A DNA stretch of 64,000 bases from an uncultured Nitrospira sp. GTDB lineage: Bacteria > Nitrospirota > Nitrospiria > Nitrospirales > Nitrospiraceae. The first letter of the stretch is position 1. Every line of letters begins with the position of its first letter. Positions 17,994 to 35,527 of this stretch are shown here, in pieces. The translations under genes and the position numbers were made by a program. Below the pieces are notes generated by a model. It had not been told where the DNA came from and made no database searches. It saw only the letters and a program-made list of their open reading frames with translations. The stretch spans positions 46,863-110,862 of the forward strand of contig CABVRW010000001.1 of assembly GCA_902500785.1 (NCBI GenBank), written 5' to 3'.

Positions 17994-19634
17994 TCAGGAC
18001 GCTTGTGCGGTGCGCGGGGCTTGGCCTGGTAGGGGTGGTTGGTGGTGGGCGGGGCCCGTTCCAGAAGCGGAAGAGTCGAGCAAGGCGCGTACCGTGCGCA
18101 GGAGAAGGTCAGGCGTGAACGGCTTTTGCAGAAAGGTCGTGCGATGAGGGTCCATGCCGCTATTTACGCATATATCATCCAGATAGCCCGACATGAAGAG
18201 CACACGCAGATTGGGCTTGATGACGGACAAATGTTGTGCGAGTTCGCGACCGTTCATTCCCGGCATCACCACGTCGGTGAGCAAGAGGTCCACATGGTAA
18301 CTCTGTTGCGTGGCCGAGAGGCAAGCTTCGACGCCATTTTTGGCTTCGATCACTTGGTAGCCGATCTTGACCAGTTCGTGACGGACCAGCTCGCGTACGC
18401 CGGTATCGTCCTCGACAAGGAGAATGGTCTCCGAACCATGGCGTAGTCGGCCTTGAGGTGTCGTGGCATCCGCCGTAAGGGTTTGCGGATTGACGCGTGG
18501 AAAATACAGGTCAAACGTAGTGCCATGTCCAACCTGGCTCCATACATCGATGCCGCCTCCGCAGGTGGTGACGATGCCGAATACGGTGGACAGGCCTAGC
18601 CCGGTGCCCTTGTGTTCCTCCTTCGTGGTGAAAAATGGTTCGAAGAGGTGGGAGAGCACGTCGGCATCCATTCCGCACCCGGTATCGGTGACGGTCAATT
18701 TGACATATTGTCCCAAGGGCAACGGATGGAGATGATGCATCGGGGTACGTGCGAGTTCCGTTTGCGACGTTTCGATCGCCAACAGGCCTCCGTTGGGCAT
18801 GGCATCCCGGGCGTTCACGACCAGATTCATGAGGACCTGTTCCAGCTGCCCGGGGTTGGCCTTCACGTGACCGTCATAGGGGTCGAAGCGGATCACCAGT
18901 TGGATGTCTTCACCGATGAGGCGCCGAAGCATGCTGTCTACATTGCCGACGACCGAATTCAATGGGAGGACTTTCGGTTCCAACGGCTGCTTTCGGCTGA
19001 AGGCCATGAGTTGGCGAATCAAGCTCGCAGCTCGTTCTCCGGCTTTCTGCATCTCTTCGATCTTGGCGCGGGTCGGATCACCGGAGGGCAATTCTGCGAT
19101 GAGGACCTGACTATGCCCCATGATGACCGTCAGCAGATTGTTGAAATCATGGGCGAGTCCTCCCGCGAGACGTCCCACCGCTTCCATCTTCTGGGCCTGA
19201 CGAAACTGTTTTTCGCTCACGCGCAGCGCGTCTTCCGCCCGCCTGCGTTCCAAACGTTCGTCGAGTTCTCGCAGGGTTCGTTTAATGGAGGGCGCAAGCC
19301 GGCCCAGGCGTTGCTTGGAGATGTAGTCGGTCGCTCCTCGCTGCATCATGTCGATGGCGAACTCCTCTCCCTGCGCGCCTGAGACGAAGAGGAACGGCAT
19401 GTCGGGATGCAGGGTCCGCGTGAGGGCGAGCGCGGCCGCTCCGTCGAAGCCGGGGACTGCGGTGTCGGCGAGAATGAGACTGAATCCCTCCTGGCGAAGT
19501 GCGGCCAGAAATTCTTCGCGCGACTGTGCGCGTTTTGACTGACACAGAATGCCGGCATTTCTGAGGGTAGCGGAAATCAGCTCCGCATCGGCGGGGTTGC
19601 TCTCGAGATGGATGAAGCGTAGCGGCTGAGTCAT
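17994..19634 (-). CDS. Hybrid sensor histidine kinase (REC-HisKA-HATPase-REC)
   Basis: A 546-residue cytosolic protein with no membrane span. An N-terminal receiver domain (phospho-acceptor Asp in FSLILADTAVPGFDG) is followed by HisKA with GRLAGGLAHDFNNLL, HATPase (N-box VNARDAM, DTGCGMD, EPFFTTK, GTGLGLS) and a C-terminal receiver (LLLTDVVMPGMNG, FLQKPF). Both receivers keep their Asp. It lies downstream of a stand-alone response regulator and a membrane kinase on the same strand, forming a phosphorelay array. The signal is unknown. Confidence 0.92.
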   Translation of the reverse strand: MTQPLRFIHLESNPADAELISATLRNAGILCQSKRAQSREEFLAALRQEGFSLILADTAVPGFDGAAALALTRTLHPDMPFLFVSGAQGEEFAIDMMQRGATDYISKQRLGRLAPSIKRTLRELDERLERRRAEDALRVSEKQFRQAQKMEAVGRLAGGLAHDFNNLLTVIMGHSQVLIAELPSGDPTRAKIEEMQKAGERAASLIRQLMAFSRKQPLEPKVLPLNSVVGNVDSMLRRLIGEDIQLVIRFDPYDGHVKANPGQLEQVLMNLVVNARDAMPNGGLLAIETSQTELARTPMHHLHPLPLGQYVKLTVTDTGCGMDADVLSHLFEPFFTTKEEHKGTGLGLSTVFGIVTTCGGGIDVWSQVGHGTTFDLYFPRVNPQTLTADATTPQGRLRHGSETILLVEDDTGVRELVRHELVKIGYQVIEAKNGVEACLSATQQSYHVDLLLTDVVMPGMNGRELAQHLSVIKPNLRVLFMSGYLDDICVNSGMDPHRTTFLQKPFTPDLLLRTVRALLDSSASGTGPAHHQPPLPGQAPRTAQAS

Positions 19635-19665
19635 CGTGAGTAGGGATCAGGGCGCCTGACGGGGG

Positions 19666-20133
19666 TTAAGTCGATCGGCCGGTTGTGCGGCTTGCGCCTT
19701 CAGGAGGTGGCTCATTGATCATACCCCAAAACACACCGAGTTCTTTGACGGCTTTGAGAAACTGGTGAAATTCGACTGGTTTGACCACATAGGCATTGGC
19801 GCCCAGGGCATAACTTTCAACCAGGTCCCGCTCTTCGCGAGAGGAAGTGAGCATGACGACCGGGATGGGTTTCAAGGCCGCGTCGCTCTTGATGGTGCGG
19901 AGGACTTCAAGTCCATCGACTTTCGGCATCTTCAAATCGAGCAGGACGACCGCCGGATTGCCCTGGAGGCGAGTCTTGAATTGGCCTCGACAGTAGAGGT
20001 AGTCCAGCACTTCAGCGCCGTCGTGACAAAGAATGACCTTATCGGCCAGGTGATGTTCCTCCATCGCGGCCAGTGCGAGTTCGGCATCGCGTGGATTGTC
20101 TTCCGCCAGCAAAATAGGTTTGGAAGCGATCAT
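19666..20133 (-). CDS. Single-domain response regulator (Rcp1-like)
   Basis: A 155-residue stand-alone receiver domain of the Rcp1 subtype: acidic pocket LLAEDNPRDAELAL, a tyrosine-rich insertion VLDYLYCRGQF, phospho-acceptor VVLLDLKMPKVDG, VMLTSSREERD and YVVKPVEF. No output domain. Its ATG overlaps the stop of the CHASE3 kinase by four bases, so the two are coupled and probably cognate. It may carry phosphate to the hybrid kinase encoded next. Confidence 0.92.
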   Translation of the reverse strand: MIASKPILLAEDNPRDAELALAAMEEHHLADKVILCHDGAEVLDYLYCRGQFKTRLQGNPAVVLLDLKMPKVDGLEVLRTIKSDAALKPIPVVMLTSSREERDLVESYALGANAYVVKPVEFHQFLKAVKELGVFWGMINEPPPEGASRTTGRST

Positions 20134-21629
20134 GCCGAGAACCTCGCCATCGGGAGGCTGACGTAAAAGGTCGCGCCTTCGCCGAGCGCACCTTCAGCCC
20201 AGGTTTTCCCGCCGTGACGGTGAATAATGCGTCGCACATTGGCCAACCCGATACCGGTTCCCTCGAATTCATCCGCTCGATGGAGCCGTTGAAAGACGCC
20301 GAATAACTTGTTGGCGTAGCGCATATCGAATCCTACCCCATTATCGCGTACGAATAACACCGCTTCCTCCTGACCGCTACCCCGGCTCCCGATCTCGATG
20401 GTGGCCTGCGGCCGTGTCCCGGTAAACTTGATTGCGTTGGCAAGGAGATTCATAAACACTTGCCGCAGCATCGCTGCGTCTCCTGTGACTTCAGGGAGTT
20501 GAGCGATTGTCCACGAGATCGCCCGATCTTGCAAGTCATGTCGCAGATCATGCAGCACGGAGGCGATCAATTGGTTCAGGTTGACCGTACCGCGCAACAT
20601 TTCCTGACGCCCCATGCGGGAAAAGACCAAGAGATCGTCGATGAGTTGTCCCATTCGGGTGGCCGATTCAGAAATCGTCTGCAGGTACCGTTTCGCCTTG
20701 TCATCCAGCGAGATGGAGGCTGCTTTTTTCAGAAGCGAGGCGTAGCCGTCGATATGGCGCAGCGGGGCGCGCAAATCGTGTGACACGGAATAGCTGAAGG
20801 CCTCCAGTTCTTTATTGGCGGCCTCAAGGAGTTCCCCGCGTCGATGGAGTTCATCGGCGATCCGCCGTCGTGCGGTAATGTCACGACGAATCAGGTAGTA
20901 CACGGCGGCAAGCAATACGAACAGAAGCAGGGCGCCCGTGATCAAGAGGATGATGCTGGAGCGAGTGGTCGTCGTGGATTCGATCACTCGTTGCGCAAGC
21001 GCCTTGGTTTCGTCCTGTTCCATCTGCGCTTGCAGTCGCCGGGCGGAATCGAGGGCGGTTTTGGCCACACCGGCCAAGGCCATCGTCCGCACCGACTCGA
21101 ACCCGGTCTCGTTTCGCAGGTCAATGGCAGCACGCTCTTCTCGAAGTTGTTGGGTGATCGACTGTTCGAGTTCGCTGACGCGTGTACGCTGGAGGCTGTG
21201 GGGGGCCGTGAGGTCACGCAGGTATCCAACGTATTCCGGTGCACGTTCCCGCAGCGTGTGGTAGGCGGCGAGGTAACTCTCGTCGCCTGTGACGAGAAAT
21301 CGTCGATGGCCGTTCTCGGCGTCGTCGATCGCCACGCCGGTTGCGGCGAGCACCTGGATGAATTCGTGACTGCGCTGGTCTTGATGGCCGTTGCGGATGA
21401 GCACCGTCATGTTGCGATACGAAATCGCTGAGATGACCAGAATGCCGGCGAAGACGAGGCCGAACCCGGCAAGCACGCGATGTTCAATGGATCGCTTCTG
21501 AAAGGTATGAACCAAAGGCCCAAGAAACGAGACCCGTGCAAGCAGACGCTCGCCCCACGGAGAGAGAGGGAGGGGGGATTCGGCGTCTGCGTTGACGGAC
21601 TGTTGGCGGTTCGATTCGTCCATGCCCAT
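20130..21629 (-). CDS. CHASE3-domain sensor histidine kinase
   Basis: A 499-residue membrane kinase. An N-terminal span (VLAGFGLVFAGILVISAIS), a CHASE3 sensory domain (about 75-210, with VAIDDAENGHRRFLVTGDES), a second span (SSIILLITGALLLFVLLAAV) and a coiled segment lead to HisKA (AFSYSVSHDLRAPLRHIDGY) and HATPase (VFMNLLANAIKF, VRDNGVGFDMRYA, GTGIGLANV). All catalytic boxes are intact. First gene of a three-gene array with a response regulator and a hybrid kinase. Confidence 0.92.
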   Translation of the reverse strand: MGMDESNRQQSVNADAESPLPLSPWGERLLARVSFLGPLVHTFQKRSIEHRVLAGFGLVFAGILVISAISYRNMTVLIRNGHQDQRSHEFIQVLAATGVAIDDAENGHRRFLVTGDESYLAAYHTLRERAPEYVGYLRDLTAPHSLQRTRVSELEQSITQQLREERAAIDLRNETGFESVRTMALAGVAKTALDSARRLQAQMEQDETKALAQRVIESTTTTRSSIILLITGALLLFVLLAAVYYLIRRDITARRRIADELHRRGELLEAANKELEAFSYSVSHDLRAPLRHIDGYASLLKKAASISLDDKAKRYLQTISESATRMGQLIDDLLVFSRMGRQEMLRGTVNLNQLIASVLHDLRHDLQDRAISWTIAQLPEVTGDAAMLRQVFMNLLANAIKFTGTRPQATIEIGSRGSGQEEAVLFVRDNGVGFDMRYANKLFGVFQRLHRADEFEGTGIGLANVRRIIHRHGGKTWAEGALGEGATFYVSLPMARFSA

Positions 21630-21782: not shown

Positions 21783-23279
21783 TTATCCTCCGAACGGAGT
21801 GACGGGCGGAGGGATCGAGGCGGCAGGGCCGACGAGGTTGGAAAACATCAGTGTGGCAGCGACAGCCCAGTCGAGGAACGGCTGTGGATAGATTCCGATC
21901 ACGAGTGTTCCGGCGAGTCCGACATAGATGACTGCTCGCAACGGACCCGTGGTCTTGATGGGAGAGGAATCGAGCGGTTCGCTGATGTACATCTTCTTCA
22001 CGACGATCAAGTAATAGTACATCGACACGACGATGTTGATGAGGCCGACGGTGATCAGGATATAGAGGCCTTCCTTGATCGCGGCGACGAAAATATACAG
22101 CTTTCCAATAAAGCCGGCGAGCGGAGGCACTCCTGCCAGCGACAGGAGGAAAATCAACATGGCAAAGGCCAGGAACGGCGAGCGCCGATTGAGCCCGCTG
22201 TAGTCATCGATTTCATCGCTACCCACCGCGTTACTGATCGCCATGATGACGGCGAAAGCCCCGAGGTTCGCAAAGAGGTAGGTCAGGAGGTAAAACAAAA
22301 TGGAGTCGGTGCCCATTTTGGTCCCGGCGGCCAAGCCGATCAGCACGTTGCCGACCTGTGCGATGCCGGAATAGGCCAAGAGACGTTTGATATTTCGTTG
22401 CGCGATGGCGACGATATTGCCGTAGGTCATCGAAAGGATCGAGGCGGCGACGATGAGCAATGCCCAGACCGGCTTGAACGTCGACAAGGCGACCATGAAC
22501 AACCGCAGCAGGATCGCAAATGCCGCCACCTTCGGGGCGATCGACAGGAATGCGGTCACCGGGGTCGGCGCGCCATGGTACGTATCAGGGATCCATGAAT
22601 GGAACGGGACGGCGCCGATCTTGAATCCCAGTGCGGCAAAAATGAGCAAGAAGCCGATCACGAGTCCGGTGGTCGGGGCCGCACCACTCATTTCAGAAAA
22701 AACCAACCGGCCCGTTTCGCCATAGACGAGGCTGATGCCGTAGGCCAGCAAGCCGGCCGCAAAGACACCAAGGATGAAAAACTTGAGCCCAGCCTCGTTG
22801 GACGCCATATCGTCACGTAGATAGGACACCAAGACATAAAACCCGAATGTCGCAAACTCGAGGGTGACGAAGAGTGACAGGAGGTCGTTGGCCGAGGTCA
22901 TGAACATCATGCCCAAAGCGGACATGACGACGAGGAAATAGTATTCGCCTCGAAAGAATGAAAACCGGTGCACATAGTCGATCGAGAGGAGAATCACGAG
23001 GATCGTCGCAAGGAGGATCATTACCTTGAAGAAGATGGCCAAACGGTCGAGGACGAACATCTTGCCGAACAGGGTGCCGGTGATGCCGGTGACGTCAAAC
23101 CACGCGAGGCAGGCCAGCGTGATCACCAATCCTAGAATGCTCAGGTACGCGAGCTGTTCTTGCACGATCCGTTTGAAGGAAAAATCGACGATCAAGACGA
23201 CGCACAGCCAGGCCGTGAGAAACAGCTCGGGCAGCAAGAGCAGGAGATCGCTGACTGACAGGGTAAGGGAGAAAGTCAT
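21783..23279 (-). CDS. nuoN: NADH-quinone oxidoreductase subunit N
   Basis: A 498-residue antiporter-like membrane subunit of complex I with about 14 spans. The proton-path residues are present: Glu in VTLEFATFGFYV, Lys in LGFKIGAVPFHSWIPD and SIAPKVAAF, and Lys in GFIGKLYIF. Length matches NuoN. The start overlaps the upstream nuoM stop (ATGA), and it is the last gene of the nuo operon. It should sit next to NuoK in the membrane arm. Confidence 0.95.
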   Translation of the reverse strand: MTFSLTLSVSDLLLLLPELFLTAWLCVVLIVDFSFKRIVQEQLAYLSILGLVITLACLAWFDVTGITGTLFGKMFVLDRLAIFFKVMILLATILVILLSIDYVHRFSFFRGEYYFLVVMSALGMMFMTSANDLLSLFVTLEFATFGFYVLVSYLRDDMASNEAGLKFFILGVFAAGLLAYGISLVYGETGRLVFSEMSGAAPTTGLVIGFLLIFAALGFKIGAVPFHSWIPDTYHGAPTPVTAFLSIAPKVAAFAILLRLFMVALSTFKPVWALLIVAASILSMTYGNIVAIAQRNIKRLLAYSGIAQVGNVLIGLAAGTKMGTDSILFYLLTYLFANLGAFAVIMAISNAVGSDEIDDYSGLNRRSPFLAFAMLIFLLSLAGVPPLAGFIGKLYIFVAAIKEGLYILITVGLINIVVSMYYYLIVVKKMYISEPLDSSPIKTTGPLRAVIYVGLAGTLVIGIYPQPFLDWAVAATLMFSNLVGPAASIPPPVTPFGG

Positions 23280-24934
23280 CGCGGAGTCACCTTCGCAATG
23301 GCTTCACGAGACGCAGGCAAGGGTACGAGGGGCGAGGCCGCATGTGGACTGTTCATCATGGGGTGCTCCGCGACCGGGACGACCTTGGTGATACGAGCGA
23401 TCAAGGGATCGACCCCAGACCGGACGACCGAGTAGAGGTGCCCCGGGAAAATGCCGAAACTGATGCTGACGGTGATCATGATCAGCAGCGGCAGGCGATC
23501 AATGACGGTCACGGCATCGTGTGAGTGGCTGTACTTTTCCGCCATCGATCCATAGAAGAGGCCGCGCATCATCTTGAAGAGATAGGCCATGGTCAGCACG
23601 ATCCCCAAGACGGCGACGACCACCTGGAAGGGGTACTTGTTCCAGCTCCCGACGATGATCATCACTTCCGCAATGAAGTTCACGGTGCCGGGCATCCCGA
23701 TCGAGGCCATACAGCCGATGACGAAAGCAGCGGAGATAAATGGCATTCGGTTGGAGAGGCCACCCAACGAGGGAATGTCGCGGGTGTGTGTTTGGTCGTA
23801 GACCCAGCCGGCCATGGCAAACAGCATCCCGGTGGCCATGGCGTGAGCGAACATGTAGATGACGGCTCCGCTCAGGCTGATATAGTCGAGTGCGGCCATT
23901 CCCAGGAAGACGTACCCCATGTGACTCGAACTGGAATATCCGATGACGTATTTGGTGTCCTTCGCGTAATAGGCGACGAGCCCACCGTATATGATGCTGA
24001 AGACACAGAGGACCGCAGCAATGGGCATGAGTTCACGGGTCGTTTCAGGGAGGATTTCGAAGGCCACCCGGATAATCGAGAAATGCCCCAACTTCATTAG
24101 GACGCCGGCATGCAACATGCTGGTCGCAGCCGGTGCGGCCGCATGTCCGACGGGTGACCAGGAGTGCAGGGGCCAAATCGGCGCGATGGAGGCAAATCCG
24201 AAAAAGATCAACAGCCAGATAAGGGTGGCCAACGGGCCAGAAAAGTGCGCCTGCTCGCGTAGGATTAAAATGTCGAAGGTGTTGAGCCCGGAGAACTTGT
24301 AAATCAGCAGAATGCCCATCAATGCCGCGACCGCGAACGCGGAGAGAAACAGGACCAACTTCATGGCCGCGTATTCTTTGCTGTTCGCGCCGAAATTGAA
24401 GATGAAGCCGACGGAATCCCGTTGCCTGAGGCCTTCCGTATCCGTCATCTCGAGGTATTTTTTTGTGTGGCTCCCCCACATGCCCAAAAGGAGGTACATG
24501 GGGATCACGGACATTTCATAGAAGAAATACAGGAAGAACAGATCCAGGGACATGAACACGCCGATCGTGGCGGCCGCGAGAATCAGAATCCAGATGTAGA
24601 ACTCTTTCATCCGGTCTTTGATGTGCCAGGATACGAAAATGCCGGCGAACAGCAGGATGGCGGAGGCCAGCACCAAGGGGGTGCCGATGCCGTCTACCCC
24701 AAGATGGAGTGAAATTCCCAATTGCCGAGACCATTCGATCCGCTGGATGAATTGAAAACCACCTTTCACGGCATCGTAGGCGTAAAAGAGATAGACCGAC
24801 GCGATCAATGAGACAAAGGCAGAACCGGCCGCAATGCCGCGCACGAGCGAGACTTGGCGGTTGGAGACGAAGATCAAGGCCAGGGCACCGGCAAATGGCG
24901 CGAAAAGAATAATGAGTAGCGTGTATTCAGCCAT
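23276..24934 (-). CDS. nuoM: NuoM-type subunit, second copy, divergent (lacks TM7 lysine)
   Basis: A 552-residue second NuoM-like antiporter subunit. The TM5 glutamate is present (FFYEMSVIP, E140), as are the TM8 lysine (VLMKLGHF, K281) and the TM12 glutamate (NFIAEVMIIV). The TM7 lysine, normally in a FAxKxP-type motif, is isoleucine here (GFASIAPIWPLH, I250), and the LPDA motif is changed to SPVG. The TM5-TM6 loop carries an insertion of about 25 residues (LEMTDTEGLRQRDSVG). It lies four bases after the first nuoM. A fourth pump-like subunit is known from extended complex I variants; whether this one pumps is uncertain. Confidence 0.92.
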   Translation of the reverse strand: MAEYTLLIILFAPFAGALALIFVSNRQVSLVRGIAAGSAFVSLIASVYLFYAYDAVKGGFQFIQRIEWSRQLGISLHLGVDGIGTPLVLASAILLFAGIFVSWHIKDRMKEFYIWILILAAATIGVFMSLDLFFLYFFYEMSVIPMYLLLGMWGSHTKKYLEMTDTEGLRQRDSVGFIFNFGANSKEYAAMKLVLFLSAFAVAALMGILLIYKFSGLNTFDILILREQAHFSGPLATLIWLLIFFGFASIAPIWPLHSWSPVGHAAAPAATSMLHAGVLMKLGHFSIIRVAFEILPETTRELMPIAAVLCVFSIIYGGLVAYYAKDTKYVIGYSSSSHMGYVFLGMAALDYISLSGAVIYMFAHAMATGMLFAMAGWVYDQTHTRDIPSLGGLSNRMPFISAAFVIGCMASIGMPGTVNFIAEVMIIVGSWNKYPFQVVVAVLGIVLTMAYLFKMMRGLFYGSMAEKYSHSHDAVTVIDRLPLLIMITVSISFGIFPGHLYSVVRSGVDPLIARITKVVPVAEHPMMNSPHAASPLVPLPASREAIAKVTPR

Positions 24935-24937
24935 GGT

Positions 24938-26497
24938 CTACTTAGCCGGTACCTGGATGACAGTGTTTACCGAAGCCACTTTGGCGCGATCCAGGCGGTC
25001 GACGAGGGCTTGAATCGATCCATTCATCATTCTCAGGAACGGCGATGGGTATAGGCCGATCCACAAGATCATAATTGATAACGAGAGCGCAATGGTGATC
25101 TCCCGCATATGGAGGTCCTTGATCGCCGAGGAGACGTTCTTTGTCAGGGGGCCGAGCATGGCGCGTTCGTAATACCACAAGAAATAGGCCGCTCCGAAGA
25201 TGACACCGAGCACCGCCACCGCCCCATACCACCATTTGGCCTTGAAGGCGCCGAGGAGGATTAAAAATTCCCCGACAAAGCCGTTGGTGCCGGGCAACCC
25301 GATGGACGCCATGCCGATCAAGAGGAGAAAGGTGGCTAAGAGCGGAACCTGTTTCGCGAACCCTCCGAATGCCGACAAGTGAGAGCTCTGCTGCCTGGTC
25401 GATAAAAATCCCGCCATGAAGAATAAGCCGGCGGTGCTGAATCCTAGGTTGATCATGGTGAGCAGGCTTCCCTGCAAGCCATGGAAATTGAGAGCAAAGA
25501 GCCCTACCACGACGAACCCAAGGTGGCTGATGCTGCTGAATGCGAGGAGGCGTTTGAAGTCTGATTGCACCAATGCCACAACCGCCCCATACAGAATCGC
25601 TGCCAGCCCCAGCACCATGACGATGGAGATCACCCCTTCGCTATTCGTCGCATCGGGTACCAATGGGAAGGTAAAGCGAAGGAATCCGTAGGTGCCCAGT
25701 TTCATGCCCGCTAACATCACGGCCATACCGATGGGACCCTCAACGAGGGCATCAGGGAGCCAGGTGTGAAAGGGGAACACGGGCGCCTTGAAGGCGAACC
25801 CCATAAACATGAGCCAGAAGATCAAAATCTGCTGGGAAAGCGGGATCGGAACTGAGAGCAACTCCAGGAGGTCGAACGAATAGACGTGGTCAAGGTGATG
25901 GGTCACGGCCCACTGATGATAGTTGATGTCGAGCAATGCAATGCCGACCAGCATGAAGACGCTGCCCAGGAGCGTGTAGAGGACATACTTCAGGGCTGCG
26001 TAATGGCGGTCCGCGCCGCCTCCCCACAACTTGATCAGGAAGTAACTGGGGATGAGCATGAGTTCCCAGAACACGAAGAACAGAATGAGGTCGATCGACG
26101 CGAAGATCCCCATGGTGGTGGTCTCGAGCGCCAAGAGCGCCATGAAATACAGCCGGATCTGGTTGCGCACCGTATCCCAGGAGTAGATGACGACCAGCAC
26201 CGTGAGGAAGGCTGTCAGGCCCACGAAGAGTACGCTGATGCCATCGACGGCGAGGTGGTACCCGATGCCGAGCGCGGGCATCCACCGCGCATGCTCGGCG
26301 AACTGCATGGCTGCGGAATCCGGCACGAAGCGCACAAGCACAAGGCAGGCCAGTGCTAGTTCCACCAGGGTGATGCCCAAGGTCGTCGTCTTGAGGAGAT
26401 CCTCGTCCTCGATCAGCCAGAGGACCGCCGCTCCCACGAGCGGGAGGAAGATCAAGTACGAGAGGATCGGGAAGCCAAAACTGAACTCTTCAAGCAT
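24938..26497 (-). CDS. nuoM: NADH-quinone oxidoreductase subunit M, first copy (canonical)
   Basis: A 519-residue antiporter-like subunit of complex I. All key charges are in place: E145 (FWELMLIPSYF), K237 (GFAFKAPVFPFHTWLPDAL), K266 (MLAGMKLGTYGF) and the TM12 glutamate (GFVGEFLILLG). It therefore looks like a normal proton-pumping NuoM. It lies between nuoL (24 bases upstream) and the divergent second nuoM (three-base gap). Confidence 0.95.
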   Translation of the reverse strand: MLEEFSFGFPILSYLIFLPLVGAAVLWLIEDEDLLKTTTLGITLVELALACLVLVRFVPDSAAMQFAEHARWMPALGIGYHLAVDGISVLFVGLTAFLTVLVVIYSWDTVRNQIRLYFMALLALETTTMGIFASIDLILFFVFWELMLIPSYFLIKLWGGGADRHYAALKYVLYTLLGSVFMLVGIALLDINYHQWAVTHHLDHVYSFDLLELLSVPIPLSQQILIFWLMFMGFAFKAPVFPFHTWLPDALVEGPIGMAVMLAGMKLGTYGFLRFTFPLVPDATNSEGVISIVMVLGLAAILYGAVVALVQSDFKRLLAFSSISHLGFVVVGLFALNFHGLQGSLLTMINLGFSTAGLFFMAGFLSTRQQSSHLSAFGGFAKQVPLLATFLLLIGMASIGLPGTNGFVGEFLILLGAFKAKWWYGAVAVLGVIFGAAYFLWYYERAMLGPLTKNVSSAIKDLHMREITIALSLSIMILWIGLYPSPFLRMMNGSIQALVDRLDRAKVASVNTVIQVPAK

Positions 26498-26521: not shown

Positions 26522-28525
26522 TCAGCGTGAGAGATACCCGTTTGAACCGCTTCCGGTCCAGATCAAGAGAATGAGGTGCGCGAGAATAAAGAGTCCCGCC
26601 ACAATAATCGCCGCATACTGATGCACCATGCCGGTTTGGATTTTTCGCCAGGAACGGGCCAGCAGGTGGTTCGCATAACCGATAATGTTCAAGCCCGCAT
26701 AGACCACGTGTTTTTCTGTCCAGGTGATCGCGGCGGAGCTGGCATCGGTTCCGTGGTCGATGGAGCGGACGAGACCGTCGATGATGGTCCGATCAAACCA
26801 GTCGCAGAACCTCCCGAGGTGTTTGGTGGGTTCCACGAAGAGTCGGTCGTATAGTTCATCGACAAAGTATTTGTTGAGCAAGGTCGTATAGACCCCGGGC
26901 ATGCGTGCGGCTAGCGCGTCTGCGGCGGACGAAGGCCCGCTGTAAAAATAGTGCGCGAGGCCCCACCCAAGCAGCGCAATGACGGTGGCGGTGCCCATCA
27001 AGCCGATCATCAGCGCCGGCGCGGTGGCATGCTCTTCACCCGCCACACCGGCGACCGAGTGCAGGAAATGGTGAAACCAGCCGTTTTCTGGCGGCACGCC
27101 GGGGAAGCCGCCGATGACGGACAGCGTGGCCAGCACCACGAGCGGACCGATCATGACCATCGGGGATTCATGGACATGCTCGGCGGTATGATGATCCAAC
27201 CGGGAGGTGCCATAAAAGGTGAGGTAGGTCAGTCGGAACATGTAAAACGATGTCAAAAATGCGCCGACTGCTGCCATGCCATAAAGCAGATAATGCTGGT
27301 GAACGAAGGCATGGCCCATGATCTCATCCTTGCTCCAGAACCCCGCCAGCGGCGGAATCCCCGCAATCGCGATGGTGCCGATCAGGAAGAGTGTGTGGGT
27401 CCAGGGAATCTTTGACTTCAACGCGCCCATTTTTCGGATATCCTGCTCGCCGGACAAGGCGTGGATGACCGATCCCGCGGACAAGAAGAGGAGGGCTTTA
27501 AAAAACGCATGGGTCATCAAATGGAAGACGGCAGCCGTATAGGCACCGAGACCACAGCCGAGGAACATATACCCGAGCTGGCTGACCGTGGAATAGGCCA
27601 GGACCCGCTTGATATCGGTTTGCACCAGTCCGATAGTGGCGGCAAAGAGTGCGGTGAGCCCGCCGATCCAGGCGACGGTCGTCATCGCGGTGGGTGAAAG
27701 ATCGAAAATCGCATGGTTGCGGACGATCATATAGACGCCGGCTGTGACCATGGTGGCTGCGTGGATAAGCGCGCTGACCGGGGTCGGGCCTTCCATCGCG
27801 TCCGGTAACCAGGTGTAGAGCGGGAGTTGCGCAGACTTTCCGACGGCGCCCACTAAGAGGCAGAGTGCGATCGCGGTGGCCATTTCGGGAGAGAGCTGTG
27901 CGGCATTCTGCATCACTTGGGTGTAGTCGAGGGTACGGAAGTTCACGAACACGAGGAAAATGGCCAGAAGGAATCCAGCGTCGCCGATCCGGTTGACGAC
28001 AAACGCCTTCGTGGCGGCCTTGGCCGCAGAGACTTTGTCGTAGTAGTAGCCGATCAGGAGATACGAACAGAGTCCGACGCCTTCCCAGCCGATGAACAGG
28101 ACAACATAGTTGTTGCCCATCACCAACAGCAGCATCGAAACCATAAACAGATTCATGTACACGAAGAAGCGTGTGAAGCCGGATTCCCCATGCATGTATC
28201 CCACCGAGTACACGTGAATCAGGAATCCGACTCCCGTGATGACCAAGAGCATGATGCAGGTCAGGGGGTCGATCAAATAGGCGAGATTGATGGTGAGATC
28301 GCCGCCGAAAATCCATTTGTAGACGATGACTTCACGGGCTGCGCCTGTTCTCAGGGTCTCCGTGAAGACGGCCAGCACGCAGAGGAACGACAGCAGGACT
28401 GAACCCCAGGCGAACCGGTGCGCCAAGTCGTGGGAATATCGGTGCCCGAAGAGGCCGTTCACAATGACGGCCATCAGCGGAAACAGCGGAATCAATTTGA
28501 CGATCAGATCAATGGAATCGGACAC
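26522..28525 (-). CDS. nuoL: NADH-quinone oxidoreductase subunit L with extended lateral-helix region
   Basis: The distal pump subunit of complex I, 667 residues, longer than typical NuoL (about 610-650). Conserved signatures are FIGWEGVGLCSYLLIGYYY, LYTWLPDAMEGPTPVSALIH and GFWSKDEIMG. The C-terminal part should form the amphipathic lateral helix and a last membrane anchor. From NKYFVDELYD (551-560) to the RKIQTG before the last span there are about 70 residues, some 20-25 more than I recall for ordinary NuoL. Such a lengthening is expected if the helix must clamp one additional antiporter subunit. One base separates it from nuoK. Confidence 0.94.
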   Translation of the reverse strand: MSDSIDLIVKLIPLFPLMAVIVNGLFGHRYSHDLAHRFAWGSVLLSFLCVLAVFTETLRTGAAREVIVYKWIFGGDLTINLAYLIDPLTCIMLLVITGVGFLIHVYSVGYMHGESGFTRFFVYMNLFMVSMLLLVMGNNYVVLFIGWEGVGLCSYLLIGYYYDKVSAAKAATKAFVVNRIGDAGFLLAIFLVFVNFRTLDYTQVMQNAAQLSPEMATAIALCLLVGAVGKSAQLPLYTWLPDAMEGPTPVSALIHAATMVTAGVYMIVRNHAIFDLSPTAMTTVAWIGGLTALFAATIGLVQTDIKRVLAYSTVSQLGYMFLGCGLGAYTAAVFHLMTHAFFKALLFLSAGSVIHALSGEQDIRKMGALKSKIPWTHTLFLIGTIAIAGIPPLAGFWSKDEIMGHAFVHQHYLLYGMAAVGAFLTSFYMFRLTYLTFYGTSRLDHHTAEHVHESPMVMIGPLVVLATLSVIGGFPGVPPENGWFHHFLHSVAGVAGEEHATAPALMIGLMGTATVIALLGWGLAHYFYSGPSSAADALAARMPGVYTTLLNKYFVDELYDRLFVEPTKHLGRFCDWFDRTIIDGLVRSIDHGTDASSAAITWTEKHVVYAGLNIIGYANHLLARSWRKIQTGMVHQYAAIIVAGLFILAHLILLIWTGSGSNGYLSR

Positions 28526-28526
28526 G

Positions 28527-28829
28527 TTACCACTTCAATAGATTCATTTCGTCGACGTTGGTCGAAATCTTGCCGCGGAACACCACAATGATGATGGCCA
28601 GCCCAATGGCCGCTTCTCCCGCCGCGATGGCGATGATAAAGAGCGCCACAATCTGGCCCTGCATGGATTCCAGATAGTGGGAAAAGGCGACCAGGTTGAT
28701 GGTGGCTGCGTTCAGCATGATCTCGACCGACATCAGGACAATAATAAAATTGCGGCGGATCAACACACCGAGTAGGCCCGTCGCAAACAGCACGGCGCTC
28801 ACGGCCACATAGGCGGACAACGGAATCAT
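28527..28829 (-). CDS. nuoK: NADH-quinone oxidoreductase subunit K
   Basis: A 100-residue three-span subunit (MnhC-like). The two functionally important glutamates are in VEIMLNAATINLVAFS and IAAGEAAIGLAIII. Length is exactly typical. The ATG overlaps the nuoJ stop. It connects the quinone-site region with NuoN in the membrane arm. Confidence 0.94.
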   Translation of the reverse strand: MIPLSAYVAVSAVLFATGLLGVLIRRNFIIVLMSVEIMLNAATINLVAFSHYLESMQGQIVALFIIAIAAGEAAIGLAIIIVVFRGKISTNVDEMNLLKW

Positions 28830-29350
28830 GCGTCACGCCTCGTTTCAATCGACTTGGGAGTCTTGGCGAGGACGATGGCGCCGACAATCGCTCCGGTCAG
28901 GAACACCCCGATGATTTCGAATTGCAGTAAATATTCGCTGAACATCTTGATGCCGATGGCATGAGCATCTCCGTCCAGCAGGATTGCCGCCGTCGAGGCA
29001 TCACCTTTGACGCCGCTGAACGGTGACCGCATCAGCAAGAACAACAGATAGACCAAGCCAATAGCCGCGGGGGCCAGCAGATAGGGGGTCTTGGCGTGGA
29101 AATAGCGGTCGTCGGTCTTGAGGTTCAGCAGCATGAGGACGAACAAGTACAGGACTAAAATGGCGCCTGCGTAGACGATCACTTGGACCGCCCACAAGAA
29201 TTCCGCGTTCAGCATGACGAACAGGCCTGAGACGTGGAGCAACAGGGCCAGGAGTGCGAGGCCGCATTGCACGGGGTTCTTCAGCGCCACGGTCAGAATG
29301 CCGGCGACAATACTCACCACTGCGAAATACCCAAAAAACACAAAGGCCAT
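28826..29350 (-). CDS. nuoJ: NADH-quinone oxidoreductase subunit J
   Basis: A 174-residue membrane subunit with five predicted spans. It has the conserved third-helix region FLWAVQVIVYAGAILVLYLF, whose pi-bulge is central to coupling, and an N-terminal FVFFGYFAVVSIVAGILTV. The C-terminal helix contains GVFLTGAIVGAIVLAK. It lies 11 bases after nuoI and overlaps nuoK by four. Confidence 0.93.
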   Translation of the reverse strand: MAFVFFGYFAVVSIVAGILTVALKNPVQCGLALLALLLHVSGLFVMLNAEFLWAVQVIVYAGAILVLYLFVLMLLNLKTDDRYFHAKTPYLLAPAAIGLVYLLFLLMRSPFSGVKGDASTAAILLDGDAHAIGIKMFSEYLLQFEIIGVFLTGAIVGAIVLAKTPKSIETRRDA

Positions 29351-29361
29351 AACGGTACGAT

Positions 29362-29949
29362 TCAGCTCAAATGTTTGGGTTGTGACTGTGTAGGTTTGAG
29401 AACCGACTGTGGAAAATAATAGCGATATTCCCGGCTCTCGTCCGAATTCTTTTCTTGGTTATGGGCATACAGATATTTTTTAGCGTCTTCGAGGTGGCGC
29501 TCGCCGATCTCGTAGAGCCTTTTCTTGTCGAAGAGGAGGGTGCGCTTATCGTGGGTAGAGTATTCATACATTTTGGTCATCGCCAGCGCGTTGACGGGAC
29601 AGGCCTCGACACAGTAGCCGCAAAACACGCACTTGGTGATGTCGATATAGAATTCGCTGGCATATCGCTGCAAGGGCCGTTCGGGGTCTTCCTGGCTGAT
29701 GACCTTGATGCATCGGGACGGGCATGCCGCCTCGCAGAGGTCGCAGCCCACGCAGCGGTCACGCCCGTCTGCATATCGGAGGAGGCCGAGTGCGCCGCGG
29801 TGACCATCCGGGATGGTTCTCTGTTCGCGCGGGTATTGAAAGGTGATGGGGCGATGGAACATGTGCTTGAAGGTGACCTTCATAGCATCCCAAATTTCAT
29901 AGAACAACGCCGCCTGCAGAATTTTTTTGGTCAAGGCCCCGACACTCAT
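29362..29949 (-). CDS. nuoI: NADH-quinone oxidoreductase subunit I
   Basis: A subunit of about 195 residues carrying clusters N6a and N6b, which pass electrons to NuoB. Two [4Fe-4S] motifs are present: CVGCDLCEAACP and CVFCGYCVEACP. The amphipathic N-terminal helix (ALFYEIWDAMKVTFKHMF) docks on the membrane arm. ATG 29949 is favoured by an AAGGTGG site; ATG 29970 and TTG 29973 in the same frame are alternatives. In most complex I operons nuoH separates nuoG and nuoI; here the two lie together with no nuoH. Confidence 0.94.
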   Translation of the reverse strand: MSVGALTKKILQAALFYEIWDAMKVTFKHMFHRPITFQYPREQRTIPDGHRGALGLLRYADGRDRCVGCDLCEAACPSRCIKVISQEDPERPLQRYASEFYIDITKCVFCGYCVEACPVNALAMTKMYEYSTHDKRTLLFDKKRLYEIGERHLEDAKKYLYAHNQEKNSDESREYRYYFPQSVLKPTQSQPKHLS

Positions 29950-29993
29950 TCCCACCACCTTTGACGACATCAAAAAGACGGACGAGCTTACCC

Positions 29994-32702
29994 TTACGCA
30001 CCAACCTTTTCAATCGTTACCCGCGTCGACTTGAAGTACGGCACTCCCGTCACCGCGTCGGCCTCCACGGCCATCAAATCCTTCACCGGCGGCTCATTAA
30101 AATGCTCGGGGAAGAAACACGATCCAGGCAAGATGTCCGGATCTGGCATTACGCCGGCTTGCACTGAGCCCTGCTGCGACGTGAGGCGGATGGTGGATTG
30201 GTCGGTCAGCCCGAGCCGTTGCACATCGGCCGGATTCATCCGTATACGCCCATTGTTCGGCTCAATGTTGATGAGTCCGGAAGCTCGCGTGGACATTTTT
30301 CCTGAGTGATAGAGCACTTGCCCGGTCAGTAAGGTAAAGGGTCGTGGACGATCGTTCGACGACGAGGGTGCCGTCTGGCCGCGATATCGGTCGGCGACTT
30401 CGGTTGCGTATCCGTTCGACAGATAGGCATCGGCCGATGGCGAAATGCGGCGAGGCTGACCGAGATTGTAGTAGCCCGGGAGCAGCTTCATGATCTCATT
30501 CTGCACATCCTGCGGCGATTCATAGGCCCAGTCGTACCCCAGGCCGTTGGCCAACGCGGTCAGAATATGCCAATCGGGCAGACTTTCTCCGACTTGATCG
30601 ACCGCCTGACGCACACGCAGGACTTTCCCTTCTAGGTTGGTGAAGGTGCCGTCCTTTTCCGCATATGTGGCTGCCGGGAGAACGATGTGCGCCATTCGGC
30701 CCGTCTCCGTGAGAAAGGGATCCTGAACGATCAGGAGCTGGAGCTTTTCGAGAGTCCCTTTCACATCCATGGAGGCAGGCAAGGTTGCCAGAGGGTTCTC
30801 TCCAATGACATAGAGGGCCTTGATCTGGCCCTTTCGGATGCGGGCAAGAATCTCCAGTAAATTGGCACCGCTTCCGCTGGCGGGAAGGGTCACGTCCCAG
30901 GCTTTGCCGAAGCGTTCACGCGCGCTGGGATCATCGAATCGTGCCTGTCCTGGCAGGAACTCCGGCGCGACGCCCATATCGACTGCTCCCTGCTCGTTGA
31001 TCTCTTCCGTGACCGTCGTCACGCCGCAGCCAGGCTTGCCCAACTTGCCGGTCACCCAGGCGAGGTCGATGAGCTTGAGGACATTCTGATAGCCGTTCGG
31101 CTGCCGGACAATCCCTTCCGCACATAAGGCAATCGCGCGCGGGGCTTCCGCAAAAATGGCGGCGGCTTCCCGGATCTGTTCGGCCGCAATGCCGGTCTGT
31201 GTCGCGACCTGCTCCAAGGACACCTGCGCCAGGGCTTGTTTCAAGGCCGTGAAGGCCTGCGGGTGCCGCGTTGTGCTCGCTTCATCGATCAGGTCTTGTT
31301 CGAGCACCGATTTGACGATCCCGTCGATCAACATGGCTTCTGTGCCCGGCTTGACCAAGAGCGGATGCGAGGCCAGCTGCGCGATGTTGGTATTGGCGGA
31401 GTCGATGACGATGACCTGTGACTGATAGACGCGGATGGCTTCCTTAATCCGGACGGCCGTCAACGGGTTCGTTTCCGTGATATTCGATCCAATTACGAGA
31501 ACGGCTTTGGCTTTGGTCAGATCTTCCCAGTCATTCAGCGGCCGACCGATGCCGACGGCATGGCGCACGGCATGGACATAATTCAGGTGGCCATAGCGGG
31601 CGCTGCTGTCGAGCTGGTTGGTTCTTAGGCCCGCGCGCATCAGTTTTTGGAACAGATACAGTTCTTCATTCGTGCAGCGCGCGGTGATGAGTCCGGCAAT
31701 CGATTCCGGTCCGTGCTTTCGATGAATGTCGGACAGCTGATCGATTACGGTCTGCATGGTGTCGAGCCACGGCGCTTCCGTCAGCGTCTCGCCCGTGCGG
31801 ATCAGGGGCTGCCGGAGTCGTTGTTCGCTGTCGATATACTGGAACCCGAATCGGCCGCGGACGCAGAGTCCGCCGTGTCCCTTGGCGGTTTCGGCTCGGT
31901 CACCCCACTTATTTTTCCAAGAGAGCGGCGAAGTGACGCGGACGACCTCGGTATCTTTGGTTTCGAGGTGCATTTGGCAGCCGTCTCCACAATAGTTGCA
32001 TGTGGTCGTGGTTTTCTTCATCTGCCACGGCTTGTAGAGGTACTTGGAATATTTGTTCGTGATGGCGCCGACGGGGCACACCGCCAGACAATCGCCGCAG
32101 AATTCACAGGCGAGGGGCTGGTCGCCCTTGGCCACAACCTGATTGAATCCGCCTTTCTTCATGAATTGCAGCGCGTCGATCATCAAGACGTCTTTGCACA
32201 CATTGATGCACTCGGCGCAGGCGATACAGCGGTTCATGTTGAAATCGAGCACCAGGCTTCGCGTGTCTTCGGGAATAAACTTTTGTTTGGCGTTAGCGAG
32301 GTTCGTCACGCCGTGCTGGAACGCCATGTCCTGGAGTTCGCAATGCCCGTCTGCGTCGCAGACCGGGCAGTCCAGCGGATGAACCGAGAGATGCTTTTCG
32401 ACCGCTTTTTTCCGTGCCGCGAACAGGTCGTCGCCGTCCGTGCGGATCACCATGCCGGCTGCCGCCTTGGCAGTGCAGGAGCGAACCGGAGCCTTTTTCC
32501 CTTCTTGCATGACGAGGCACATGCCGCAGGAGCCGAAGGGATCGAAGGTATAGTGGTAGCACATGGCCGGAATAATCTTGCCTGTGCTGGCGATGACGTC
32601 GTAGAGCGAGACGCCGTCTTTGGCCGACACCGTTCGTCCGTCGATGGACAGTTCGATCGTGGCCGATTCGACGTCTGGATTGGTCGCTGGTTTCAAACCC
32701 AT
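29994..32702 (-). CDS. nuoG: NuoG-type subunit with formate-dehydrogenase-like domain
   Basis: A 902-residue iron-sulfur subunit. In order: a [2Fe-2S] site (C48, C59, C62, C76), the HxxxCxxCxxxxxC site (H108, C112, C115, C121), two ferredoxin [4Fe-4S] sites (CIACAECINVC and CEFCGDCLAVC) and a molybdopterin-type domain with its own [4Fe-4S] cysteines (C235, C238, C242, C280). The large domain is close to formate dehydrogenase H (TARCTNEELYLFQKLMRA), but the Sec/Cys molybdenum ligand position is glycine (ARYGH, G371). It is therefore unlikely to oxidise formate. With no nuoE or nuoF nearby it may be the electron entry point, perhaps for ferredoxin. Confidence 0.92.
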   Translation of the reverse strand: MGLKPATNPDVESATIELSIDGRTVSAKDGVSLYDVIASTGKIIPAMCYHYTFDPFGSCGMCLVMQEGKKAPVRSCTAKAAAGMVIRTDGDDLFAARKKAVEKHLSVHPLDCPVCDADGHCELQDMAFQHGVTNLANAKQKFIPEDTRSLVLDFNMNRCIACAECINVCKDVLMIDALQFMKKGGFNQVVAKGDQPLACEFCGDCLAVCPVGAITNKYSKYLYKPWQMKKTTTTCNYCGDGCQMHLETKDTEVVRVTSPLSWKNKWGDRAETAKGHGGLCVRGRFGFQYIDSEQRLRQPLIRTGETLTEAPWLDTMQTVIDQLSDIHRKHGPESIAGLITARCTNEELYLFQKLMRAGLRTNQLDSSARYGHLNYVHAVRHAVGIGRPLNDWEDLTKAKAVLVIGSNITETNPLTAVRIKEAIRVYQSQVIVIDSANTNIAQLASHPLLVKPGTEAMLIDGIVKSVLEQDLIDEASTTRHPQAFTALKQALAQVSLEQVATQTGIAAEQIREAAAIFAEAPRAIALCAEGIVRQPNGYQNVLKLIDLAWVTGKLGKPGCGVTTVTEEINEQGAVDMGVAPEFLPGQARFDDPSARERFGKAWDVTLPASGSGANLLEILARIRKGQIKALYVIGENPLATLPASMDVKGTLEKLQLLIVQDPFLTETGRMAHIVLPAATYAEKDGTFTNLEGKVLRVRQAVDQVGESLPDWHILTALANGLGYDWAYESPQDVQNEIMKLLPGYYNLGQPRRISPSADAYLSNGYATEVADRYRGQTAPSSSNDRPRPFTLLTGQVLYHSGKMSTRASGLINIEPNNGRIRMNPADVQRLGLTDQSTIRLTSQQGSVQAGVMPDPDILPGSCFFPEHFNEPPVKDLMAVEADAVTGVPYFKSTRVTIEKVGA

Positions 32703-32782: not shown

Positions 32783-34030
32783 TCATCGATCGCATTCGCC
32801 CATGACGATGTCGTAGGTGCCGAAAATCGTCACGGCATCGGCGATCATGTAGCCTTTCGACATATGATCGAACGCGCCCATATGGATAAACGATGGGGCG
32901 CGGATTTTCAGTCGGTACGGCTTTCCGCCGCCCGTGCTGACGATGTAGAAACCTAACTCCCCTTTGTGCGCCTCGGTCCCGCAGTAGATTTCTCCGGGGG
33001 GCGCATTGAACCCTTGCGAGAACAGCTTGAACTGCTGAATCATGGATTCCAGGTTCGTGAACACGCGTTCTTTCGGGGGAAGAGTCACGCTGGGCACGTC
33101 CGCCATGATCGGCCCGTCCTGGATTTGCTCGAGGCACTGGCGGATAATTTTGACGCTTTCATAGAGTTCTTGCACGCGAATCCAGTACCGATCATACGTA
33201 TCGCCGTTCTTTCCGACCGGTACGCTGAACTCGCATTTGGGATACGCCGAGTAGGGTTCGTATTTACGAAGATCGTAATCGACGCCGGACCCTCGAAGCG
33301 TCGGGCCGCTCAAGCCAAAACTCAAGGCATCCTCGGCTGAAATCACCGCCACACCTTTGGTGCGCGCGAGCCAGATGCGGTTCTTCTCCAGGAAGATCAC
33401 GTATTCATCGATCTTGGGAGGGAAATAGTCGAGGAACTGTTTGAGCTTCGCGAACAAGGAGGGTGTGAAATCGCGCTCCACACCGCCGATACGATACCAG
33501 CTCGTCGTCAGGCGGGCGCCGCACAGCTCATCAAACCAATCCAGCAGAATTTCACGGTCCCGGAAGCAATAAAAGAAAACGGTCATTGCTCCGATGTCGA
33601 GGGCTTGCGTGCCGAGCCAGAACTGGTGGCCGATAATGCGTTGAATTTCCGCGACGATGGTGCGCAGGTACTCCGCGCGGTCCGGCACGGTGATATTCAT
33701 CAACTTTTCGACGGCGCGGCAATAGGCAAAATTGTTGTACATCGCGCACACGTAGTCGAGACGATCCGTATGCGGAATGAACTGATGGTACGTGCCTTCT
33801 TCGGCCAGCTTTTCCACGCCGCGGTGGAGAAACCCCATCACCGGAGTCGATTTGACCAAACGCTCGCCCTCCAACTCGAGGATGACCTTCAGCACGCCGT
33901 GCGTGCTGGGGTGTTGTGGTCCCATGTTGAGGAGCAGCTCTTCCGTTCGTAGTGTCGGAAGGGTGGCGTCTTCCGGATGCTCCGGATCGACTTTGTAGAC
34001 TGTCGTTCGTTGATCTTCGAACCGTGTCAT
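32783..34030 (-). CDS. nuoD: NADH-quinone oxidoreductase subunit D
   Basis: A 415-residue 49-kDa-type subunit that forms the quinone pocket with NuoB. It contains NMGPQHPSTHGVLKVILELEG, with the quinone-site histidines near residues 34-38, GFLHRGVEKLAEE, DRLDYVCAMYNN and the C-terminal MGECDR. It is not fused to NuoC. An 80-bp gap separates it from nuoG. Confidence 0.96.
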   Translation of the reverse strand: MTRFEDQRTTVYKVDPEHPEDATLPTLRTEELLLNMGPQHPSTHGVLKVILELEGERLVKSTPVMGFLHRGVEKLAEEGTYHQFIPHTDRLDYVCAMYNNFAYCRAVEKLMNITVPDRAEYLRTIVAEIQRIIGHQFWLGTQALDIGAMTVFFYCFRDREILLDWFDELCGARLTTSWYRIGGVERDFTPSLFAKLKQFLDYFPPKIDEYVIFLEKNRIWLARTKGVAVISAEDALSFGLSGPTLRGSGVDYDLRKYEPYSAYPKCEFSVPVGKNGDTYDRYWIRVQELYESVKIIRQCLEQIQDGPIMADVPSVTLPPKERVFTNLESMIQQFKLFSQGFNAPPGEIYCGTEAHKGELGFYIVSTGGGKPYRLKIRAPSFIHMGAFDHMSKGYMIADAVTIFGTYDIVMGECDR

Positions 34031-34058: not shown

Positions 34059-34556
34059 CTACCGGGCCGGCTCATCCAAAAATTCAAAGGTATCGCGCCA
34101 CCCTTTGCCGCGGAGCGGAAAATCTTTGCGCAAGGGGTACCCTTCTTCGTACTCGTCAGGCATCAAAATACGGCGAAGGTCTGGATGGTTTCGAAACCGA
34201 ATGCCCATCATGTCGTACACTTCGCGTTCCATGAAGTCGGCGCCCTTCCAAATGTCGGTCAGGGAATCCACGATGCAATCCGATTCCGGAACCCGCGTCT
34301 TCAGGCGGATCCGTTGCCGAGTCCGAATCGAATAGACCTCATAGACCACCTCGAAGCGTTCCTCGTCGTCAGGCCAATCGACCGAGCTCACATGGACGAT
34401 GTAGTCAAACCTCATGGCCGGGTCGTCCCGCAAGAACTTGCCGATGTCATGCAGGGCCTCACGCTTGACGGTGACGGCCAAGTCCCCGCGCCACTCCGTC
34501 ACCTTGGTGGAGGCGCCGGGAAAGGTCTCTTCGATGCGTTGGGCCAGTTGATTCAT
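34059..34556 (-). CDS. nuoC: NADH-quinone oxidoreductase subunit C
   Basis: A 165-residue 30-kDa-type subunit of the peripheral arm. It shows RFDYIVHVSSVDWPD, the family signature EREVYDMMGIRFRNHPDLRR and LMPDEYEEGYPLRKDFPL. It bears no cofactor and stabilises the NuoB-NuoD-NuoI core. Separate from NuoD, unlike the fused NuoCD of enterobacteria. Confidence 0.96.
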   Translation of the reverse strand: MNQLAQRIEETFPGASTKVTEWRGDLAVTVKREALHDIGKFLRDDPAMRFDYIVHVSSVDWPDDEERFEVVYEVYSIRTRQRIRLKTRVPESDCIVDSLTDIWKGADFMEREVYDMMGIRFRNHPDLRRILMPDEYEEGYPLRKDFPLRGKGWRDTFEFLDEPAR

Positions 34557-34572: not shown

Positions 34573-35100
34573 TCAGACTTTCAGGGCGGCCTTCACTTCT
34601 TTCGGTTGGGTCAGGAACACACGCTTTTGCATGATGCGCTCTTGCAGTTTCAGAATGCCATCGAATAAGGCCTCTGGAGTCGGCGGACATCCCGGCACAT
34701 AAATATCGACCGGGACGAAGCGATCGACTCCCTGTACCACGCTGTAGCTATCGTAAATATTTCCCGATGTGGCGCACGACCCCATGGCGATCACGTATTT
34801 CGGTTCCGGCATTTGGTCATAAATCTTGCGAATGACGGGCGCCATGCGACGACAGACGGTTCCGGCGACGATCATCAGATCGGACTGTCGAGGGGATGCC
34901 CGAAACACGCCGGCCCCGTATCGGTCCATGTCGTAACGGGAAGAGACCGCGGCAATCATCTCGATGGCACAGCAGGCTAATCCAAAGGTCATGGGCCACA
35001 AGGATCCCTTACGGGCCCAATTGACGGCTTTTTCAACCGTCAGGGTGATCACATCAGGAGTACCGTCTTTGTCGTGGCCTCCAAGCTGAATCAGTCCCAT
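34573..35100 (-). CDS. nuoB: NADH-quinone oxidoreductase subunit B
   Basis: A 175-residue subunit holding the terminal cluster N2. Ligand cysteines are C43 and C44 ([10 protein letters not shown]), C109 (MGSCATSG) and C138 (VPGCPPTPE). ATG 35100 is chosen because AAGGAG lies seven bases upstream; an earlier in-frame start at 35121 would lie upstream of that site. It overlaps the end of nuoA by ten bases. Confidence 0.96.
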
Positions 35101-35474
35101 TCCAGAGCTCCTTTTCGCCAAGCGTAAACATAGGCGACGAGGAAAAGTCCTATAAAAATCAACATTTCCACAAGCCCGATCAGGCCGATCTTGCTGAAGA
35201 CAATAGCCCAGGGATACAGAAAGATGACTTCGACGTCGAAAATGACGAACAGCATGGCAAAGATGTAGTAGCGGACAGGGAATGGCATCCTGGCATCCGA
35301 AAATGGTTCAGATCCGCACTCATAGGTGGAAAGTTTCTCCGGCTCCGGGTACTTCGGTTGAACAAAATAGCTGATAAGCAATGTGCCCGCGCCGAACGCA
35401 AGCGCGATGAACACAAACAACAGAATAGGAAAATATCGGCTTAGGTATTCTAAGAGGAGCTCGGAACCGGCCAT
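35091..35474 (-). CDS. nuoA: NADH-quinone oxidoreductase subunit A
   Basis: A 127-residue three-span subunit: [20 protein letters not shown], then the conserved loop [22 protein letters not shown], and two more spans ending [15 protein letters not shown] 35474 with GAGG nine bases upstream is preferred over a TTG at 35489. First gene of the twelve-gene operon. Confidence 0.94.
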
Positions 35475-35527
35475 GGGCTCGAACCTCAACAGGTTTGAGG
35501 GCTTATTGGGCTGATTAGGAGGTCGGA

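Follow-up and report, generated by a model that had tools for sequence, protein, structure and literature searches.

The arrangement of TM12, TM8 and TM7/TM5 in the antiporter-like subunits of complex I has been called a minimum in one review (PMC10212512). In isolated modules, opening of the ion pair between the TM5 Glu and the TM7 Lys controls proton conduction, which rose when the pair was broken (PMC11496545), and a nonpolar gate has been ascribed to the Leu ten residues beyond the Lys (TM7+10; L214 in Thermus; PMC13220270). In Paracoccus ND4, K232Q, at the TM7 Lys, and L242A, at the +10 Leu, each abolish the NADH:quinone activity of the purified enzyme, as do E141Q, K263Q, E405Q and H246F (PMC9802314). 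Since each of the first two changes is inactivating, both losses together would be expected to be harmful unless compensated. For NuoL, His254 on TM8 has been modelled as a switch connecting the Lys-Glu pair with the uptake and release paths (PMC13358369). A complex I with two NuoM subunits (2M) has been described from Nitrospira; as published, the complex as a whole would have more proton leverage per two electrons, and the clade 3 form is proposed to run in reverse, reducing ferredoxin (PMC6606698; also PMC9040806).

The 2M complex I operon and its second NuoM

The window, meaning the whole 64,000-nucleotide stretch of Nitrospira DNA analysed here, carries on its minus strand an operon in the order A-B-C-D-G-I-J-K-L-M1-M2-N (Table 1). 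No nuoE, nuoF or nuoH was found in this 2M cluster, and by alignment the NuoL lateral helix has about 26 residues more than that of the genome's other NuoL. The NuoG, of 902 residues, has molybdopterin domains like those of formate dehydrogenase alpha, and scores better against the profile of that protein (TIGR01591) than against the NuoG profile. Absence of nuoE, nuoF and nuoH together with an enlarged NuoG is a published criterion for clade 3 (PMC6606698), and the window operon is a member of the Nitrospira clade 3 2M (four-pump) complex I. The genome yielded a single nuoH, located in the canonical operon of another contig; with none in the 2M operon, NuoH may serve two complexes. Beside nuoN, on the same minus strand (17994-21629), lie genes for a CHASE3 histidine kinase, a response regulator and a hybrid kinase.

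Table 1. Positions in the window of the 2M operon genes and of the NuoM2 features discussed
Feature	Position	Strand	Description	Basis
nuoA	35091-35489	minus
nuoB	34573-35121	minus
nuoC	34059-34556	minus
nuoD	32783-34030	minus
nuoG	29994-32702	minus	enlarged
nuoI	29362-29973	minus
nuoJ	28826-29350	minus
nuoK	28527-28829	minus
nuoL	26522-28525	minus	lateral helix extended
nuoM1	24938-26497	minus	Lys-type NuoM (K237, AAG codon 25787-25789)
nuoM2	23276-24934	minus	Lys-less NuoM, 552 aa	ORF and NCBIfam profile match
nuoN	21783-23279	minus
Glu140 codon	24515-24517	minus	TM5 Glu kept in NuoM2 (former ion-pair partner)	alignment
TM5-TM6 loop insertion	24380-24460	minus	about residues 159-185, specific to Nitrospiria NuoM2	spacing comparison
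Ile250 codon	24185-24187	minus	ATC, TM7 Lys site of NuoM2	codon read and alignment
Ser260 codon	24155-24157	minus	NuoM2 TM7+10, gating Leu in Lys-type NuoM	alignment
His275 codon	24110-24112	minus	NuoM2 TM8, NuoL His254-like position	alignment
Lys281 codon	24092-24094	minus	TM8 Lys kept in NuoM2	alignment
Glu423 codon	23666-23668	minus	TM12 Glu kept in NuoM2	alignment

NuoM2 is encoded between NuoL and NuoN, and its top NCBIfam match is TIGR01972 (NuoM), at 408.6 bits against a cut-off of 263.8. The first-pass annotation had read Ile at the TM7 Lys site of this protein, and the codon bears this out: Ile250 stands where NuoM1 has K237. It had also read a change of LPDA to SPVG, which is present in the sequence, and had listed the TM5 Glu, TM8 Lys and TM12 Glu as kept, which agrees with the alignment (E140, K281 and E423); the alignment adds a TM11 His, His338. 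The TM5 Glu/TM7 Lys ion pair is incomplete, with Glu140 in place and Ile250 at the Lys site, and the membership of NuoM2 in the NuoM family stands all the same, because the pair is a mechanistic motif and not part of the homology-based family definition. TM7 of NuoM2 holds no Lys or Arg, and its sole His is the universal one at +7. Across 44 NuoM2 scanned from TM7 position -12 to +8, no charged residue other than that universal His was found, ruling out a Lys that has shifted elsewhere in TM7.

The insertion of about 25 residues that had been proposed for the TM5-TM6 loop is real, the TM5 Glu and the TM7 site being 107-116 residues apart in NuoM2 and 80-99 in all other NuoM. It is a separate trait of Nitrospiria NuoM2; a role in compensating for the Lys is ruled out by Lys-less single NuoM that have no such insertion. 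The neighbouring NuoM1, which had been taken as canonical, is so only in part: it is Lys-type, with K237, but it has Leu at TM7+14 where other NuoM have His, the residue whose H246F change inactivates the Paracoccus enzyme, its TM8 is two residues shorter, and the second TM11-12 His is absent. NuoM1 and NuoM2 each lack different parts of the standard residue set.

Conservation and origin of the Lys-less NuoM

In a sample of 60 relatives and a phylum-wide set of 296 genomes, many of the sampled genomes being fragmented, relatives of NuoM2 at E < 1e-70 occur in the window's class only. At the TM7 site of the alignment all 69 NuoM2 rows have Ile and all 68 NuoM1 rows have Lys, counting a handful of rows in which one gene was fetched twice. 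The NuoM2 rows are 54-100% identical, and given divergence down to 54% identity the invariance of the Ile is far above chance. NuoM2 is better conserved than NuoM1 in 29/29 loci, and on average also better than NuoL and NuoN, a pattern contrary to decay. When named genomes were scanned, 79 proteins of NuoM2 type matched the motif; 78 of them have Ile, and the other, from a Clostridia MAG, has Leu. That Ile250 is a sequencing error, a strain-specific change or a decaying duplicate has a negligible probability: no NuoM2 row keeps the Lys, the protein is the better conserved of the two, and the Lys-less state is common to several phyla, so that this reading is ruled out. Loss of the Lys throughout second NuoM, a point that the first-pass annotation had proposed to check, holds for every copy read of this complex type, but an L-M-N-M operon (L247:1-11001) has two Lys-type NuoM, and loss in every second NuoM is ruled out.

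Some variation within the type was also seen. In four Manganitrophaceae-type NuoM2 (L060, L062, L065 and L068) the second TM11-12 His is Asp (FAHA to FADA), and NuoM2 of this type has an extra Lys directly before the TM8 Lys. A MAG labelled Nitrospinota (L128) carries the same four-gene block with a NuoM2 79% identical to that of the window, the result of transfer or of mis-binning. A tblastn search of plasmids gave distant matches only, at about 33% identity.

The Lys-less state extends well beyond this operon type. Of 182 non-redundant NuoM, drawn from neither archaea nor Chloroflexota nor 2M clades 1-2, 74 are Lys-type and the other 108 have no Lys at the TM7 site. The residue at the site in the 108 is Ile (65), Leu (35), Val (3), Thr (2), Met (1), Gln (1) or His (1), and so Ile, Leu or Val in 103/108. 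In some Omnitrophota and Clostridia genomes the Lys-less NuoM stands alone between NuoL and NuoN, an arrangement that proved common in their phyla. No other NuoM passes the curated cut-off in 16 genomes (10 belong to the phylum of the Clostridia MAG, 6 to that of the Omnitrophota), where the protein is encoded in ordinary L-M-N operons, implying that loss of the Lys is not tied to second-copy status. One Lys-less NuoM (L251) lies within an A-B-C-D-H-I-J-K-L-M-N cluster. Among solved structures, the TM7 site is Lys in all of the best three alignments listed.

Where did the second NuoM come from? A tree made without the TM7-TM8 columns parts Lys-less from Lys-type NuoM by a single branch (SH-aLRT 99), and on a tree rooted with NuoN, all of which have the Lys, the Lys-less group (support 100) is nested inside Lys-type NuoM, both trees being quick searches without bootstrap. 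The nesting implies that the Lys was lost, and on the NuoN-rooted tree lost once. NuoM1 and NuoM2 as sisters are rejected (AU test, p 2.8e-11), which rules out NuoM2 as a duplicate of NuoM1; the second NuoM was thus recruited from the Lys-less lineage, and the source of the Nitrospira complex's fourth pump is another NuoM lineage, with no local duplication. The first-pass view of the Lys loss as a property of an added or arm-extending subunit is not supported, since the same lineage supplies sole NuoM and NuoM2 is no copy of NuoM1. An operon from the Omnitrophota phylum (L254:3188-9866 in genome G367) also has the order L-M(Lys)-M(no Lys)-N, and the lateral helix of its NuoL is likewise extended. 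Sisterhood of its Lys-less copy with Nitrospira NuoM2 is rejected (p 0.006), so that four-pump operons seem to have gained a Lys-less NuoM beside NuoN on two occasions, the L254 operon apparently being independent of the Nitrospira one.

Linked residue changes and the route of the proton

Residues were matched across species (+10, +14 and +31 from the TM7 Lys) by our own counting on the sequences. Eleven diagnostic positions part Lys-less from Lys-type NuoM, and the sole titratable gain among them is a His on TM8, in the column of NuoL His254, present in 104/108 Lys-less and 0/74 Lys-type sequences. At TM7+10 the Lys-less proteins have Ser (102/108), the Lys-type proteins Leu (70/74) and never Ser (0/74), and at TM7+13 Ala has become Gly in 107/108 Lys-less NuoM. 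The rest of the chain is kept in Lys-less NuoM: the TM5 Glu and TM11 His in 108/108, the TM8 Lys in 107/108, the TM12 Glu in 106/106 aligned, and the +14 His/Tyr of the uptake channel. Four of the 108 lack the TM8 His. In L240 the TM7 site itself is His and the TM8 site Asn; in L239 a Gln occupies the TM7 site and the old Leu/Leu pattern is kept; in L255 and L266 both the Lys and the His are missing.

We lean towards the view that NuoM2 is a working antiporter-like proton-channel subunit, of an old and distinct lineage, in which the TM5-TM7 switch has been replaced by the TM5 Glu and a TM8 His, and which has been recruited as a fourth pump. The TM8 His, being in the His254 column and six residues before the kept TM8 Lys, is the obvious candidate for the role of the TM7 Lys. 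With the ion-pair switch gone and Ser in place of the Leu gate, the TM5 Glu and the gained His would jointly take over the switch, a proton being passed or blocked as the His swings from the TM5 Glu to the TM8 Lys/TM11 His and back, as the NuoL His254 switch is modelled to do. In Nitrospira, the Lys-less subunit would have been recruited between NuoM1 and NuoN, where a fourth pump could give more proton leverage per two electrons. Of the possibilities raised in the first-pass annotation, a changed proton route appears the best; the TM7 Lys is absent and no other Lys or Arg is present in TM7; a compensating charge has a candidate on TM8, His275, and none on TM7. The residue changes, their conservation, the phylogeny and the operon contexts are observed directly, whereas proton conduction by the subunit, the His switch and the direction in which the subunit is used are inferred. 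An AlphaFold model of NuoM2 has the NuoM fold (best match 8qby_M) and is weak at residues 251-266, so that it gives no readout of the reach of His275 to Glu140.

In favour of a working channel we count the invariance of the Ile, the better conservation of NuoM2 than of NuoM1, the keeping of the other chain residues, the 16 genomes with this protein as sole NuoM, its place in the L251 cluster, the single loss, the linked Ser and His changes, the His at the TM7 site of L240, and the His254 model for NuoL; against it, the inactive K232Q and L242A mutants, the four sequences without the TM8 His, and E. coli HycC, which has neither Lys nor His. Alternatively, the Lys-less NuoM could be a lateral relay or spacer that does no transmembrane pumping of its own, the TM8 Lys and TM12 Glu passing charge along the arm and the subunit lengthening the arm or tuning the coupling. 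The ion pair and the Leu gate, both held necessary for gating, are indeed gone, single-exit models release protons through NuoL alone (PMC10212512), and in 2M complexes the Lys-less copy adjoins NuoN rather than the tip. Against this, the protein serves as the only NuoM in 16 genomes, it retains every other chain residue as well as the uptake-channel His/Tyr at +14, and every subunit makes use of its TM7 site even under the single-exit model (PMC10212512); we consider this reading unlikely.

The same two losses could instead mimic the open state of the channel, lowering the barrier and allowing easy reverse running (quinol to ferredoxin) but weakening the gating. Such a reading, which we think quite improbable, accords with the raised conduction of isolated modules with a broken pair and with the +10 Leu as a nonpolar gate (PMC11496545, PMC13220270), and also with the reverse operation proposed for the Nitrospira 2M complex (PMC6606698), but an ungated channel would leak, and the coordinated His, Ser and Gly changes resemble a rebuilt switch more than a broken one. 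Transport of Na+ or K+ instead of H+, another ion having been suggested in the first-pass annotation, would fit the fold shared with Mrp antiporters; since the TM7-TM8 core has gained a His but no acidic site, and the residues of the proton chain are kept, it is very improbable.

The TM7 Lys has been regarded as universal, and it seems to be dispensable. Current coupling models centre on the TM5-Glu/TM7-Lys pair, which is missing from a natural lineage found in several phyla and often as sole NuoM. The models become directly testable: either fewer protons are pumped by Lys-less enzymes, or there is more than one way to make the switch. More tentatively, and at somewhat less than an even chance, a widespread natural class of complex I may pump through a NuoM without the Glu-Lys pair by means of a NuoL-type TM8 His switch. 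Were this true, the ion pair would be one solution and no universal requirement of redox-driven proton pumping.

Comparison with known systems

Canonical NuoM/ND4 (E. coli NuoM, Paracoccus Nqo13) share with NuoM2 the fold, the TM5 Glu, TM8 Lys, TM11 His and TM12 Glu, and the +14 His. NuoM2 differs in having no TM7 Lys, Ser for the gating Leu, Gly at +13, and the added TM8 His. That His, His275, falls in the same alignment column as the His254 switch of NuoL/MrpA, but NuoL keeps the TM7 Lys, lacks the TM8 Lys and has a Lys on TM12. As NuoM2 has Ile250 and no TM7 Lys beside its His, it may work like the NuoL switch, and we do not claim that the two are the same switch.

HycC of E. coli formate hydrogenlyase resembles NuoM2 in the absence of the TM7 Lys (Leu208) and in keeping the TM5 Glu and TM8 Lys (PMC5061711; sequence checked here). 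It differs in having Phe instead of the TM8 His and Val at +10, and it belongs to a hydrogenase and not to a quinone-reducing complex I. A literature search, with Chadwick et al. 2018 outside its scope, found HycC only and no Lys-less NuoM in complex I.

With the Nitrospira clade 3 2M complex I (Chadwick et al. 2018; described in PMC6606698, PMC9040806) the window operon shares the second NuoM, the extended NuoL lateral helix, the cluster without nuoE, nuoF and nuoH, and the enlarged NuoG, and the complex itself is no different. To what is known of this complex the present analysis adds that its second NuoM has lost the TM7 Lys, a residue that Chadwick et al. 2018 may have mentioned, and that NuoM2 has a separate origin.
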